DNA of 64,000 nucleotides, from NCBI GenBank assembly GCA_005887685.1, contig VBHJ01000007.1, positions 1-64,000 on the forward strand. Direction: 5' to 3'. The notes under the pieces are model-generated. The model saw nothing but the letters and a program-made list of their open reading frames with translations, had not been told where the DNA came from and made no database searches. Below, piece by piece: positions 24,958 to 39,132 of this stretch; the first letter of the stretch is position 1; every line of letters begins with the position of its first letter. The translations under genes were made by a program, and so were the position numbers. Origin of the DNA: Chloroflexota bacterium. GTDB taxonomy: Bacteria; Chloroflexota; Dormibacteria; Dormibacterales; Dormibacteraceae.

Positions 24958-25029
24958 AGCCAGAAGGAGGGGGCACTGGGCGCGGGCGTAGTCGGAGGCG
25001 GCGCGTCAGCCCTGCAGAGAGTGCGCTCT

Positions 25030-26040
25030 ATGGCTCTCGGCGGCATGAGCCTGATCGACTTTCTCTTCTATATCATCTGCGCCGCGGCGGTCGTACTCCT
25101 GGCTGCCCAGGCGGTCATCAACCCAACGGCTTTCGTGCAGATCACCGTCTTCGGTCTGGCCGACGGCGCCATGTACGCGCTCGTCGCACTCGGCTACACC
25201 ATGGTCTACGGCATCATCGAGCTGATCAACTTTGCTCATGGCGACGTGTTCACGATGGGCGGGTACATCAGCGCCGCGATTCTCGGCTTCTTCGCCATCA
25301 ACGAACAGACCTTCACCGCCGTCAACCTGGTCGCGATCCTGCTCGTGTTCCCCGCTGTGATGCTGATCATGGCCGCCATCAACGTCGGAATCGAACGCAT
25401 CGCTTACCGCCCTCTGCGCAATGCGCCACGGCTGGCACCGCTGATCACGGCGATCGGCATGTCGTTCGTGCTCGAGGGCGTCATGTTCCTGTGGCATGGT
25501 CCCGCCTCCGTCCACTTCCCTGACATACTCCCGCACGGGCCGGGTTTCCAGACCACGATCGGCGGCGTGTTCGTCACATTCAAAGATGGATTCGTGATGG
25601 TGACGGCCGTATTTCTTGTCACGTTGCTCGCCATCTTCATCAACCGCACCAAGCTCGGCAAGGCGATGCGCGCGACGGCGCAGGACAAGGACGCGGCGCA
25701 GCTGATGGGAATCGACATCAACCGGACGATCGCGGCGACGTTTTTCATAGGCGCGCTGCTGGCGGGAGCCGGCGGCATGATCTGGGGCCTCTACTTCAAC
25801 AACCTCTTCTACAACCTTGGCTTCCGCACTGGCCTGGTGGCGTTTACCTCCGCCGTGTTCGGAGGCATCGGCAACATCCCTGGCGCGGCTATCGGCGGCG
25901 TTCTGATCGGGCTTATCGCGGCCTATAGCGACTCCTACATCGGTTCCAAGTGGACCGAGGTCGTGATCTTCGGCATCCTGATCGGCGTCCTGGTGTTCAG
26001 GCCGACCGGCTTGCTCGGCATGCGGGTGCCTGAGAAATGA
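25030..26040 (+). CDS. livH: Branched-chain amino-acid ABC transporter permease LivH
   Basis: Inner-membrane permease of about 336 residues; starts at GTG 25021, ATG 25030 and ATG 25045 are all possible. About eight to nine hydrophobic helices. Typical LivH segments: YTMVYGIIELINFAHGDVF, AQDKDAAQLMGIDINRTI (coupling region for the ATPase) and FGGIGNIPGAAIGG. It overlaps livM as ATGA. Partners are the LivK-type lipoproteins upstream. Confidence 0.95.
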   Translation: MALGGMSLIDFLFYIICAAAVVLLAAQAVINPTAFVQITVFGLADGAMYALVALGYTMVYGIIELINFAHGDVFTMGGYISAAILGFFAINEQTFTAVNLVAILLVFPAVMLIMAAINVGIERIAYRPLRNAPRLAPLITAIGMSFVLEGVMFLWHGPASVHFPDILPHGPGFQTTIGGVFVTFKDGFVMVTAVFLVTLLAIFINRTKLGKAMRATAQDKDAAQLMGIDINRTIAATFFIGALLAGAGGMIWGLYFNNLFYNLGFRTGLVAFTSAVFGGIGNIPGAAIGGVLIGLIAAYSDSYIGSKWTEVVIFGILIGVLVFRPTGLLGMRVPEK

Positions 26041-27320
26041 CCGAACCTATCGCTGTCAGGAGACGCTCGTTGATGACCCGGCTCCATCTTCGCGAGCGGA
26101 TCCGCGATCGCGACCAGGCCATCTACGGCATCCTCATCCTCGGCGCGCTGGTCTTCCCCATGGTCACCTTGTTCATCACCGGCGGGAGTTCCGCGTATAT
26201 CTCGCAGGCCTCGCACGCAGGGACCTGGGTCCTGCTCGCGATCGGCCTCAACGTGGTGGTCGGGTTTGCGGGGCTGCTCGATCTCGGTTACGCGGCGTTC
26301 TTCGCCATCGGGGCCTATACGTATGCGATGTTCGCGTCGTCACAGCTGGGCTCATCGCCGCTCCACCACAACTACCACTTCCCGTTCTGGATGATGCTGA
26401 TCTTGGGGATGATCGTCGCCGCCGGGTTCGGCGCGCTGCTTGGATTCCCCACCCTCCGCCTGCGCGGCGACTACCTCGCCATCGTCACCCTGGGGTTCGG
26501 CGAGATCGTGCCCAATCTTGTCTACAACCTGCCGGATTGGACCAGCGGCATCAACGGGATCGGTGGCATCGACAAACCGTGGTTCCCGGCCTGGATCACC
26601 GGGCCGTGGGCCGGCGCGAACAGTATCTCGGTGATCCATGACTCGGTTTGCCGCAACCCGATTGCCCAGACGCAATTCATACCCTGCTTCAGCTTCGGCT
26701 TCGATCCGATCGCTTATTACGTGCTGATCGTCATCCTCATCTTCGGCGCCGTGATCCTGGTCACCAACCTCTACCGCTCACGGTTGGGCCGGGCGTGGAT
26801 GGCGATTCGCGAAGACGAGGTCGCCGCCGCCGCGATGGGCATCAACACCGTCACGACCAAGCTCCTGGCGTTCGCGATTGGAGCTTCGTTCAGCGGCTTC
26901 GCCGGCGCCTACTACGGGGCGAGCTTCGGTCTCGTGAGCCCTGACGACTTTCTGTTCGTGGTGTCCATCACGGTGCTTGTGATGGTCGTGCTGGGCGGGA
27001 TGGGCAACATCACGGGAGTCATCATCGGCGCCCTCGTCATCTATTTCGTCCTCAACACGTTGCTGCCTTCGCTGGCGTCCAACGCCGAGTCTCTGGCCAA
27101 TACCGTTGGCCTGGGCTCGCTCAACGCACAGAATGGGGACTGGCCAGGCCTGTACGCCGAGGTGCAGCGAATGCAGTTTCTGATCTTCGGGCTGATCCTC
27201 GTCCTGATCATGCTCCTGCGCCCGCAGGGCCTGTTCCCGAGCCGTGTCCGCGAGCAGGAGCTCAAGCACGCAGCCGTGCAGGAAGAAGGATCTGCGGTCG
27301 AGGAGGGGGTGCGAGTCTGA
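26037..27320 (+). CDS. livM: Branched-chain amino-acid ABC transporter permease LivM
   Basis: 427 residues with about ten membrane segments. Family motifs are GLNVVVGFAGLLDLGYAAFFAIGAY, RLRGDYLAIVTLGFGEI, AIREDEVAAAAMGIN (ATPase-coupling helix) and LGGMGNITGVIIGALV. The C-terminal tail after FPSRVREQEL is charged and cytoplasmic. Its TGA stop is embedded in the CTGA junction that begins livG. Confidence 0.95.
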   Translation: MTEPIAVRRRSLMTRLHLRERIRDRDQAIYGILILGALVFPMVTLFITGGSSAYISQASHAGTWVLLAIGLNVVVGFAGLLDLGYAAFFAIGAYTYAMFASSQLGSSPLHHNYHFPFWMMLILGMIVAAGFGALLGFPTLRLRGDYLAIVTLGFGEIVPNLVYNLPDWTSGINGIGGIDKPWFPAWITGPWAGANSISVIHDSVCRNPIAQTQFIPCFSFGFDPIAYYVLIVILIFGAVILVTNLYRSRLGRAWMAIREDEVAAAAMGINTVTTKLLAFAIGASFSGFAGAYYGASFGLVSPDDFLFVVSITVLVMVVLGGMGNITGVIIGALVIYFVLNTLLPSLASNAESLANTVGLGSLNAQNGDWPGLYAEVQRMQFLIFGLILVLIMLLRPQGLFPSRVREQELKHAAVQEEGSAVEEGVRV

Positions 27321-28090
27321 GCACCACCGAGAACATCCTCGAGCTCACGAACCTCACCAAGCGCTTTGGCGGGCTGGTCGCGGTCGACAACGTGAGCCTG
27401 CACATCAAGCGCGGCGAGGTGTTCGCCCTGATCGGCCCCAACGGGGCCGGCAAGACCACGTTGTTCAACAACGTTACGGGACTCTTCCAGCCGACAGCAG
27501 GTCGTGTAGTTTTCGACGGTCGCGACATCACCGGCTCGAAGCCTCACCAGGTGGCGCGGTTGGGCATCGCGCGAACATTCCAGAACATCCGACTCTTCGA
27601 CTTCATGACGTGCCTCGACAACGTGCGCGTCGGGCGTCATGTGCGCATGCACGCCACGCTTTGGGACTCGTTATTCAAGCTGCCACGGGAGCGGCGCGAG
27701 GAAGAGAAGACCACGGAGGAGGCGATGGACCTGCTTCGCTTCGTCGGCATCGCCAAGCATGCAAACCAGTACGCGCGCAACCTTCCCTACGGTCAGCAGC
27801 GCCGGCTGGAGATCGCCCGGGCCCTGGCGACCGACCCCAAGCTCCTCCTGCTGGACGAGCCCGCGGCCGGCTTCACGCCTCAGGAGAAGGTCGAGCTGAT
27901 GCAGCTGGTCAAGAAGATCCTGACGCGAGGGATCACGGTCTTCCTGATCGAGCACGACATGAAGGTGGTCATGGGCATCTCCGAGCGCATCGTGGTGCTC
28001 GACCACGGCGAGAAGATCGCCGAGGGGTCGCCGGATGAGGTCCGCAAGGACTCCAAGGTCATCGAAGCCTACCTGGGCAAGTCGGCCTAG
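27317..28090 (+). CDS. livG: Branched-chain amino-acid ABC transporter ATPase LivG, apparent CUG start
   Basis: ATP-binding subunit. The track begins at GTG 27392, which would remove the first beta strands. In frame upstream lies STTENILELTNLTKRFGGL, exactly the expected LivG N-terminus, with no ATG, GTG or TTG. The only plausible start is CTG 27317, overlapping the livM stop as CTGA, with GGAGGGGG about seven bases upstream. This gives 257 residues, the usual length. Walker A is GPNGAGKTT, signature is LPYGQQRR, and Walker B is LLLLDEPAAGF. Confidence 0.9.
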   Translation: MSTTENILELTNLTKRFGGLVAVDNVSLHIKRGEVFALIGPNGAGKTTLFNNVTGLFQPTAGRVVFDGRDITGSKPHQVARLGIARTFQNIRLFDFMTCLDNVRVGRHVRMHATLWDSLFKLPRERREEEKTTEEAMDLLRFVGIAKHANQYARNLPYGQQRRLEIARALATDPKLLLLDEPAAGFTPQEKVELMQLVKKILTRGITVFLIEHDMKVVMGISERIVVLDHGEKIAEGSPDEVRKDSKVIEAYLGKSA

Positions 28091-28115
28091 CGGGATTGCG
28101 GAGGGACAGCGGCTT

Positions 28116-28240
28116 GAGATTCGGTGCACAGACGGGCCAGATGCTAGGCGCCGCCGAGCACCGGAGCGCGCGCATCGGAATGCGTAAGCGAGGAGCGGAG
28201 ACGGCAACGACGCAGATGGCCCGTATGGGCGCCGAAGATC
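28116..28240 (+). repeat. Dispersed ~125-bp structured element, copy 1
   Basis: Lies between livG and livF. It aligns by eye with 36743-36869 at about 88% identity with one 2-base gap. Ends are inverted: TTCGG...ACGGGCCA near the left end pairs with TGGCCCGT...CCGAA near the right end, with a conserved tandem G-A mismatch inside. An inner hairpin CGCAT-CGGA-ATGCG is also shared. No ORF is conserved. It may be a structured RNA or a small hairpin mobile element. Confidence 0.75.
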
Positions 28241-28268
28241 TGCCGATGGGCCCTCCGCGAGCCCGCTG

Positions 28269-28979
28269 ATGGCGCTACTCGAGCTCGAATCGGTCAATGC
28301 GTTCTACGGACGAATCCAGGCGCTTCGCGGGATGTCGATCAGGGTCGAGAAAGGCGAGGTTGTTGCCCTCATCGGCTCGAACGGCGCGGGCAAGACGACG
28401 ACCCTGCGCACCATCTCGGGCCTCATGCATCCTCAATCGGGCTCCATCCGTTTCGACGGCCGTGACATAACCCGGACCGGACCGTCGAACATCGTCGAGC
28501 TGGGAATCTGCCAATCGCCCGAGGGCCGGCGGCTCTTCCCGCGCATGACTGTCGTCGACAACCTGTTCATGGGCGCCTACACGCGCAATGACAAGCCGGG
28601 CATTGCCTCTGACCTCGAACGCGTCTTCACGCTCTTCCCGCGGCTGAAGGAACGCCGGACGCAGATCGCGGGCACGCTGTCCGGCGGCGAGCAGCAGATG
28701 CTTGCGATGGGCCGGGCGCTGATGGCGCGGCCGAAGCTGATGATGCTGGACGAGCCGTCGCTGGGCCTGGCGCCGATCCTGATCGAGACCATCTTCAGCA
28801 TCGTGCGCGAGATCAACGCGCAGGGAACGACCGTCCTACTCGTGGAGCAAAACGCGAACAAGGCGCTGGAGGTCTCGAACCGCGGTTACGTGCTGGAGAC
28901 GGGCGTTGTCGTGCAGGAGGGATCGGGCAAGGAGCTGCTCGCGTCTGAGGGAGTGCAGAAGGCCTACCTCGGGATGTAG
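28269..28979 (+). CDS. livF: Branched-chain amino-acid ABC transporter ATPase LivF
   Basis: Second ATPase of the transporter, 236 residues from ATG 28269. Walker A GSNGAGKTT, signature LSGGEQQM, Walker B LMMLDEPSLGLAP. The gap to livG (178 bases) is unusual for this operon type and is filled by the structured repeat. Forms a heterodimer with LivG on the LivHM permease. Confidence 0.96.
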   Translation: MALLELESVNAFYGRIQALRGMSIRVEKGEVVALIGSNGAGKTTTLRTISGLMHPQSGSIRFDGRDITRTGPSNIVELGICQSPEGRRLFPRMTVVDNLFMGAYTRNDKPGIASDLERVFTLFPRLKERRTQIAGTLSGGEQQMLAMGRALMARPKLMMLDEPSLGLAPILIETIFSIVREINAQGTTVLLVEQNANKALEVSNRGYVLETGVVVQEGSGKELLASEGVQKAYLGM

Positions 28980-34917: not shown

Positions 34918-36724
<1,807 letters not shown>

Positions 36725-36742
36725 GGCCGGAGACCTCGGCGA

Positions 36743-36869
36743 GAGATTCGGTGCACAGGTGGTCCAGATGCTAGGCGCGGCCGAGCATCGGAGCGAGCGC
36801 ATCCGTTGATGCGTGAGCGAGAAGCGCAGGCTGCAACGACGCAGATGGGCCGCATGGGCGCCGAAGATC
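36743..36869 (+). repeat. Dispersed ~125-bp structured element, copy 2
   Basis: Second copy of the element at 28116, same strand of the window but opposite relative to its flanking genes. Inverted ends are kept: GTGGTCCA pairs with TGGGCCGC through two G-T wobbles, where copy 1 has ACGGGCCA with TGGCCCGT, so several paired positions changed together. The inner hairpin is CGCATC-CGTT-GATGCG here. The tandem G-A mismatch is present in both copies. Confidence 0.75.
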
Positions 36870-36899
36870 CGTCGAGGGGCTCCGGCCGGGACTTCGGGG

Positions 36900-37850
36900 T
36901 CATACGACTGAACGAAAGTATTCAAGAGTTCGGCCCAGGCCGTCTTCCAGGCTGACCTGGGGCTGCCAGCCGAGGAGCTTTTTGGCTCGCGCGATGTCGG
37001 GCCGGCGCTGCTTGGGGTCGTCGACCGGGAGCTCGCGATGGTCGATCGTGCTGCTGGAGCCGGCGAGGCGGATGATCGTCTCGGCGAGCTCCAGCACCGT
37101 CACCTCGTGCGGATTGCCGAGGTTGATGGGCAGCTCGTCGCCCCGCTCGAGCGTCGCCAGCACGCCTCCCACCAGATCGGAGACGTAGCAAAGGCTTCGC
37201 GTCTGCGAGCCGTCGCCGTAGACGGTGAGTGGCTCGCCCCGAATCGCCTGGGCCATGAAGTTGGGCACGGCGCGGCCGTCGGACACCTGCATGCGCGGGC
37301 CGTGCGTGTTGAAGATGCGCACGATGCGCGTGTCCACCTGATGCGTGCGGTGATAGGCCATCGCGAAGGCCTCTGCGCAGCGCTTCGCCTCGTCGTAGCA
37401 GCCGCGCGGACCGATCGGGTTGACGTTGCCCCAGTAGGTTTCAGGCTGCGGGTGGACCAGTGGATCGCCGTAGACCTCCGAGGTCGACGCCAGGAGAAAT
37501 GTCGCTCCCTTAGCCCGTGCCAGGCCGAGCATGTTCGTCGTCCCCAGCGTGCCGACCTTGAGCGTATGGATCGGGTTGGAGTCGTATTGCGGCGGGGATG
37601 CCGGTGACGCGAAATGCAGCACGTAGCGGACGTCCCCGCCGATGAAGACGCCGTGGTTCACGTCGGCCTGGCGGAACTCGAAGTCGGAGTTGCTTTCCAG
37701 CGACTTGAGGTTTTGCGGCGATCCGGTGATGAAGTTGTCGATCGCGAGCACGCGCATGCCCTGGTCCAGCAGGGCCCGGCACAGATGCGAGCCGATGAAG
37801 CCGGCTCCGCCCGAGACGACCGCCCTCGGCCTGGAGCTACTCGCGGCCAA
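36900..37850 (-). CDS. UDP-glucuronate decarboxylase (UDP-xylose synthase)
   Basis: Extended SDR enzyme of about 316 residues. Start uncertain: TTG 37850 overlaps the UDP-glucose dehydrogenase stop slightly, while ATG 37910 would overlap it by 74 bases. Rossmann loop is [36 protein letters not shown] and the YDEAK active-site Tyr-Lys match UDP-glucuronate decarboxylases better than dTDP-glucose dehydratases. The upstream enzyme makes its substrate. Confidence 0.87.
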
Positions 37851-39132
37851 TGCCGCGATAGGTAAAGCCGAGGCCGCGCATCGCTTCGGGGTCGTAGATG
37901 TTTCGGCCATCCACGATGACGGGGCGGCGCATGAGCTGCTTGACCCGCGCCATGTCGAGCTGGCGGAACTCGTTCCATTCGGTGATCAGCACGATCGCGT
38001 CCGCGCCCGCCGCGACGGCGTACGCGTCCTTCAGGTACTCCACCTCGGGCATCAGGACACGAGACCTCTCGATCGCGGCGGGGTCATAGGCCCGAACCTC
38101 GGCGCCGGCGGCGAGAAGAACCTTGGCGATGCCGATGCTCGGCGCCTCGCGCATGTCGTCGGTGTTGGGCTTGAAGGCAAGGCCGAGCAAACCGATGACG
38201 CGGCCGGGTAGCTCATCCAGCGTCTCGCGCAACAAGTCGACGACGACCATGCGCTGGTCGCGATTGATCTGCATGACAGCCTGCAGGAGCTCGGGGTGAT
38301 AGTTGAATCGTTCGGAGATGGCGGCCAACGCCGCGACATCCTTGGGGAAACAACTGCCCCCCCAGCCAATCCCGGCATCGAGGTACGCGGAGCCGATCCT
38401 CTTGTCGAGGCCCATCCCCTCGGCGACGAGCTTCGCGTCGGCCCCCACGCGCTCGCTGATCCACGCAATCTCGTTGATGAACGAAATTCGCGTGGCCAGA
38501 AATGCATTCGATGCGTACTTGACCATCTCCGCCGTGTAGATGTTCGGGGTGACCAGGACCCGTGCTTCAAGCGGTGCGTAGAGCGCCGCCACTTTCAGTG
38601 CTGCCTCATGGTCGTTGCTTCCAACCACCACGCGGTCCGGGTGCATGAAGTCCTGGATCGCGGAGCCCTCGCGCAGGAATTCGGGGTTGGAAACGACCGA
38701 CGCCTTGTGCTTCGTGTTTCTTTTCTGCAGCACGCGCGAGACCATGTCGCCGGTCAGCGGAGGCACCGTGGACTTGTTGACCACGACCAGCGGTCCGTCC
38801 ATCGCGTCGGCGATCGAGCCGGCGGCCGCCTCCACGTAGGAGAGGTCCGCCTCCCCGCCCTCCCCCTCGGGCGTGCTAACCGCGATGATCGCGTACTCGG
38901 CGCCGGGCACCGCGTCGACATAAGAGGTCGTGAAACTCAGCCGCCGCGCCCTGGCGTTGCGCTCCACCAGCTCGATGAGACCGGGCTCATAGAACGGAAC
39001 CTGGTGGTTCTTGAGCTGGGCGATCTTCTTCTCGTCGATGTCGACGACCGTCACGGCATTGCCTAGGTCCGCCAGGCATGCCGCCGTCGTCAGCCCGACG
39101 TAGCCCGCACCGATGACGGCGACCTTGCTCAC
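37837..39132 (-). CDS. ugd: UDP-glucose 6-dehydrogenase
   Basis: Oxidises UDP-glucose to UDP-glucuronate. 431 residues: N-terminal Rossmann loop [17 protein letters not shown], catalytic cysteine in [12 protein letters not shown], and C-terminal UDP-binding domain with [16 protein letters not shown]. Starts 10 bases after the GT4 gene and feeds the decarboxylase next to it, giving UDP-xylose or UDP-glucuronate for surface polysaccharide. Confidence 0.95.

Follow-up and report, generated by a model that had tools for sequence, protein, structure and literature searches.

A hairpin-shaped repeat with mirrored arms and a conserved core, probably a mobile element, fills the livG/livF spacer of a Chloroflexota bacterium

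The spacer between livG and livF in a Chloroflexota bacterium (GenBank assembly GCA_005887685.1) is filled by one inserted unit, which we regard as probably an old, MITE-like, short non-coding and hairpin-shaped mobile element that is mobilised by a factor acting in trans. The window is the whole 64,000-nt stretch analysed (contig VBHJ01000007.1, positions 1–64,000) and belongs to a draft genome of 264 contigs. Genes around the copies were called from the open frame and third-position GC.

Results

Extent and copies of the element

The inserted unit is 178 bp long (28091–28268, + strand) and occupies the entire spacer from the livG stop to the livF ATG, flush at both ends. livG (27392–28090, + strand), whose TAG stop ends at 28090, encodes an ABC ATPase with a branched-chain amino-acid C-terminal domain (Pfam ABC_tran and BCA_ABC_TP_C). 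livF (28269–28979, + strand), an ABC ATPase gene with its ATG at 28269, was assigned from Pfam ABC_tran and from the gene order, which includes two BPD_transp_2 permeases at 25021–27320. A sequence-only reading of the window had described a repeat of about 125 bp at 28116–28240, with one further copy at 36743–36869 that was about 88% identical. BLAST reproduces both sets of coordinates exactly, at 87% identity, and finds eight more copies in the same genome, giving ten. The unit itself proved longer: arm complementarity, which extends ~25 nt past each end of the 125 bp, and empty sites in relatives put it at ~178 bp, of which 28116–28240 is the inner portion.

This inner portion (+ strand) carries the core that recurs in many phyla, CCAGATGCTAGGCGC...GCAACGACGCAGATGG in the window; the core of the element is CCAGATGCnAGGCG...GCAACGnnGCAGATGG. 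On either side lie the left (28091–28115, + strand) and right (28241–28268, + strand) outer arms, both locus-specific and complementary to each other, with GCGGGATTGCGGAGGG on the left pairing with CCCTCCGCGAGCCCGC on the right. The stem halves named from the sequence, ACGGGCCA/TGGCCCGT and GTGGTCCA/TGGGCCGC, are present, with G-T pairing in the second copy as described, and the tandem G-A mismatch (CCAGATGC opposite GCAGATGG) occurs in both window copies.

The second copy is a unit of 176 bp (36724–36899, + strand), as delimited by empty and filled sites in relatives, and lies between TCA repeats at 36721–36723 and 36900–36902. It separates an epimerase/GDP-mannose dehydratase-like gene (36900–37910, – strand, Pfam), whose TGA stop at 36902–36900 is kept, from a phosphoribosyltransferase gene (36200–36724, – strand, Pfam Pribosyltran). 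The latter has a GTG start at 36724–36722 that is made at the element edge, where relatives have ATG.

Insertion, empty sites and target duplications

The element inserts as one unit, and relatives have empty sites. In the nearest relative (G007, livG ~92% identical) the livG stop directly abuts the livF ATG, with GGCCTAG followed at once by ATGGCG. The element is absent from this junction in all 28 other resolved genomes of the same genus, family and class, and the genus members lacking it there have a spacer of 0–13 nt. At the phosphoribosyltransferase junction, G008 is filled and has the insertion in common with the window's genome, G007 retains GTCACGGCCGGGACTT alone, a remnant that lacks the core, and the empty sites of G010, G011 and G022 have an overlapping stop and start. 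Further loci show more empty sites, with flanks that are 96–97% (L012/L264) and 95% (L019/L265) identical.

Target-site duplications were clearest in Desulfobacterales, where the copies have constant ends (GATGG..TCGTAAAAAGTC) and are flanked by 6-bp repeats. The repeat is perfect in 9 of 11 copies, with a mean match of 5.55/6 against 3.29 after shuffling (maximum 4.82). In the window's genus target duplications are only partly preserved (TGA plus a few nt). Together with the empty sites, the duplications in this related clade support the mobile hairpin that had been offered as one option. In six Desulfobacterales copies (L106, L112, L136, L160, L171 and L173) we also observed two tandem left arms, both of which could pair with the single right arm to give two alternative folds.

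Among 385 loci we found no autonomous copy with a gene between element halves; the two matches were both merely ~170-bp spacings. Two candidates, a pair of ends spanning 1.1 kb in G066 (L352) and another of 1.27 kb (L353), were rejected as autonomous elements, being separate elements around host genes.

Fold, covariation and strand

The predicted RNA fold has an energy of –72.5 kcal/mol (z –6.4), and none of 200 shuffles was as good. Covariation strongly supports it. Across 51 pairs in 71 copies, pairing is possible in 94.3% of cells, compared with 37–41% when the partners are slid, and 548 double-change cells are observed against 142 in shuffles. Double changes occur at 42 of the 51 pairs, which bears out the earlier suggestion of a selected nucleic-acid structure insofar as the structure is maintained. 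As the shuffle statistics ignore relatedness, orthologous copies were examined as well (see below).

In this family the tolerated mismatches are strand-biased. Of the wobble mismatches in the outer 14 nt, 49 are G.T when read on the CCAGATGC strand and 10 when read on the reverse strand, and among single-arm differences between orthologs the corresponding numbers are 21 and 4. Other phyla, outside this family, show a weak bias, or the opposite one in the core; we therefore do not generalise it, and a general strand bias was rejected. Because C-to-T changes on an exposed strand would also produce it, the bias shows which strand is single or folded and is silent on whether that strand is RNA. 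Internal mismatches are also conserved, namely the tandem G-A and GGCCGACC/GACCGCCC in the ortholog group L005/L030/L279.

Arms and core evolve at different speeds

Each arm is matched to its own partner. On average 12.46 of 14 positions pair within a copy, compared with 5.08 of 14 with the arms of other copies, and 500 shuffles never exceeded 5.75. In 18 orthologous pairs compared over 16 arm positions, we counted 36 mirrored changes, 36 single-arm changes and 6 other both-arm changes. The 42 both-arm changes compare with 12 expected if the arms changed independently (odds ratio 32). Thus, the arms being made once from the target at insertion was rejected as the main cause, since orthologs keep changing in mirror image.

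The core behaves differently. In two Selenomonadales genomes mean identity is 94% for the cores and 66% for the left arms, and each arm complements its partner. The orthologous copies L224/L363 have their arms in common and differ in their cores, as do L218/L361 in part. In G022, L269 and L275 have unrelated arms and 97% of the core in common, compared with 87–89% identity to their own orthologs. Cores have thus been replaced within arms that stayed. The simplest account is that conversion between copies homogenises the cores of paralogs, while the arms remain and drift together; alternatively, a mobile core may displace older cores within resident arms.

An origin of the arms from pre-existing host hairpins was rejected for the window's genus because the empty sites have none. 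In Selenomonadales it may still apply: at the L227 site, where G061 has a core-bearing element, G062 and G068 (L358 and L357) have a plain hairpin, GGCCGGGAGGG-loop-CCCTCCCGGCC.

Variant copies were also seen. L352 (G066:C58, ~1480–1650) has the same ends, GACGAACTTGTAAAAAGT...GACTTTTTACGAAGCCATC, around a different core, GTCATTCCCG...GGAATGACG, that is akin to another widespread repeat, and the ends may therefore be common to several core types. L353 (1410–1510) has a core without its middle, CCAGACGCA meeting GCGCAACGCCGCAGATGG, with AAGGATT repeats kept on both sides. L253 (G007:C98 region) and L010 contain a small GC-rich GGGGTCCCCATGCCGAAGGCATGGGAGGC-like hairpin within the element, resembling an inserted REP-like unit.

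The mirrored changes could arise without selection on the fold if template-switch replication (quasi-palindrome correction) copied one arm onto the other, a process that would be compatible with mobility. Half of the mirrored changes (18/36) are transversions, which no G-U intermediate allows and which agree with copying in a single step. Simple homogenisation does not, however, predict the strand bias of the mismatches tolerated between orthologs, nor the conserved internal ones. We consider template switching a possible explanation of the arms, if a rather unlikely one.

Placement at stop/start junctions

At 27 of 31 copies (3-kb loci with both neighbours resolved; some copies are orthologous and not fully independent) the neighbouring genes are codirectional. 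At these 27 junctions the genes lie opposite the CCAGATGC strand in 21 cases and on the same strand in 6. By script, 20 copies have TGA immediately before the element and an in-frame TGA-containing start at its other edge, which is GTGA in 18 of them. A GAGG/AAGG-like motif lies at most 16 nt before the start in 17 such copies, usually as GAGG ~8 nt ahead of GTG. At many copies of the window's genus the element edge furnishes the ribosome site, which is GAGG-like, and the start codon, GTG. For L002, L003, L004, L012 and L019, whose empty relatives are known, the native start is an ATG overlapping the stop (ATGA), and it is GTG after insertion. The genes are left intact since insertion falls at stop/start junctions. 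Two accounts would fit this placement: targeting of ATGA by the ends, or survival of such insertions alone.

Distribution across genomes and phyla

The further copies expected in the genome and its relatives exist: 39 of the 61 genomes searched, the window's own included, carry at least one, and two Selenomonadales genomes carry at least 40 each. By record title, the core-end pattern occurs, among the matches listed, in Desulfobacterota, Negativicutes, Peptococcaceae, Nitrospirae, Rokubacteria, Gemmatimonadetes, Acidobacteria, Chlamydiae, beta- and gammaproteobacteria and Myxococcales; many of these records are bins from metagenomes, and a single unexpected phylum could reflect misbinning. The element is, however, also present in isolate genomes, namely Sporomusa malonica, Geothermobacter hydrogeniphilus and Geomobilimonas luticola. 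Carriage by a plasmid or phage was rejected, as no record of either kind matched. In G067 many contigs start near the end repeat of the element (positions 74–114). Short-read assembly thus seems to break at the element, and bins from metagenomes may hold more copies than are counted.

Relation to known families

Over the element, neither the window nor 12 loci gave an Rfam match at the gathering cut-off, or any at E<=1. The core sequence turned up in no relevant paper. We know of no described repeat family that combines mirrored outer arms, a constant middle and insertion between neighbouring genes.

REP and REPIN sequences are extragenic palindromes with a strand-specific fold that are mobilised in trans by a RAYT transposase. 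The element is likewise an extragenic palindrome with a strand-specific fold. It differs in its longer unit, in the target duplications of one clade, and in the absence of Y1/RAYT (PF01797) from all 8 family genomes tested and also from G061 and G063. RAYT was therefore rejected as the mobiliser and, judged by this search, the element is not a REPIN/RAYT system.

Ordinary MITEs have constant terminal repeats, whereas the element has a conserved core and ends that vary between loci, which by their descriptions sets it apart from Correia, Chunjie and ERIC. It shows three of the four MITE features considered: it is short, non-coding and multi-copy, has terminal inverted repeats, although of locus-specific sequence, and in one clade has a target-site duplication. 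A partner insertion sequence with the same ends, as MITEs have, was not seen within the 385 loci. Correia, Chunjie and ERIC (reviewed in PMC10969869) resemble it in being short, non-coding, palindromic, multi-copy and intergenic, and Chunjie is likewise reported to sit inside an operon without disturbing it.

Multi-copy intergenic "predicted short RNA elements" with a central palindrome, GRCGTAGCGCTGCTACGCC, were described in Geobacter metallireducens (Aklujkar et al., 2009; PMC2700814, Additional file 4) and reported there, as RNAs, for Geobacteraceae and Desulfotalea only. Reverse-complemented, this palindrome is exactly the tip GGCGTAGCAGCGCTACG(C/T)C of the deltaproteobacterial copies L115, L126 and L127; the tip of the window's own copy differs from it. 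Thus, the Geobacter branch of the element was probably seen in 2009. The legend of that description is silent on arms, insertion, target duplication and other phyla, and relative to it the behaviour of the arms and the span across phyla appear new.

The 2009 label implies an RNA element, either a multi-copy small RNA or a hairpin that processes or stabilises mRNA. The stable fold, the occurrence on one strand of G-U and purine-purine mismatches, and the conservation of the core across phyla would suit this. Against it, the mRNA of the genes would carry the opposite strand in 21 of the 27 codirectional junctions, and no promoter-like or terminator-like site was found at the liv copy. We therefore consider an RNA function unlikely.

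We also judge it improbable that the copies are a family of transcription terminators placed after genes, with the core hairpin between an A-run and a T-run. In low-GC clades the element does look like a terminator, the core lying between AAAAAG...CTTTTT, and a gene that points towards the element frequently has its stop codon directly at the right end (27 versus ~9 by hand count). However, the T-run is missing in the window's genus, a scan for an intrinsic terminator (GC stem plus T-run) at the liv copy was negative, and copies lie within operons between codirectional genes.

Discussion

The position of the element between livG and livF, with the livF start just past the hairpin, had suggested a cis regulator that sets the ratio of the two genes; this is very unlikely, as the element is at this junction only in this genome of 29 resolved, which argues for a private insertion and not a conserved liv regulator, and as the same element lies between unrelated gene pairs elsewhere.

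We thus favour a mobile hairpin. One long imperfect hairpin would form from the conserved core and the near-palindromic arms, and its folded CCAGATGC strand is probably recognised by a putative enzyme acting in trans. We infer a folded single-strand intermediate; the whole unit would insert at once, here into the livG/livF junction, with no specific role at liv. In the window's genus the element edge would rebuild the start codon and the ribosome site. After insertion, mirrored changes would keep the arms complementary, and gene conversion among copies would refresh the cores. Several findings speak against a mobile hairpin: no autonomous transposon with the element's ends in the 385 loci, no Y1/RAYT transposase in the 8 family genomes tested, locus-specific ends unlike the constant ones of ordinary MITEs, target duplications that are only partial in the window's genus, and a strand bias that is inconsistent in other phyla.

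More tentatively, the class might be defined by its conserved middle and not by its ends; this middle would be swapped or refreshed between copies and recurs across many phyla, and the arms of each copy would co-evolve on site. One of its lineages would enter ATGA overlaps and rebuild both signals, with TGA kept upstream and GAGG-N8-GTG supplied downstream.

If true, the mobile-element reading would unite into one family repeats of many phyla that have been noticed one by one or have escaped notice. Mirrored arms next to a homogenised core would provide a natural experiment on structure selection versus template-switch repair, and the copies described here would show a mobile element entering overlapping operon genes without destroying either.
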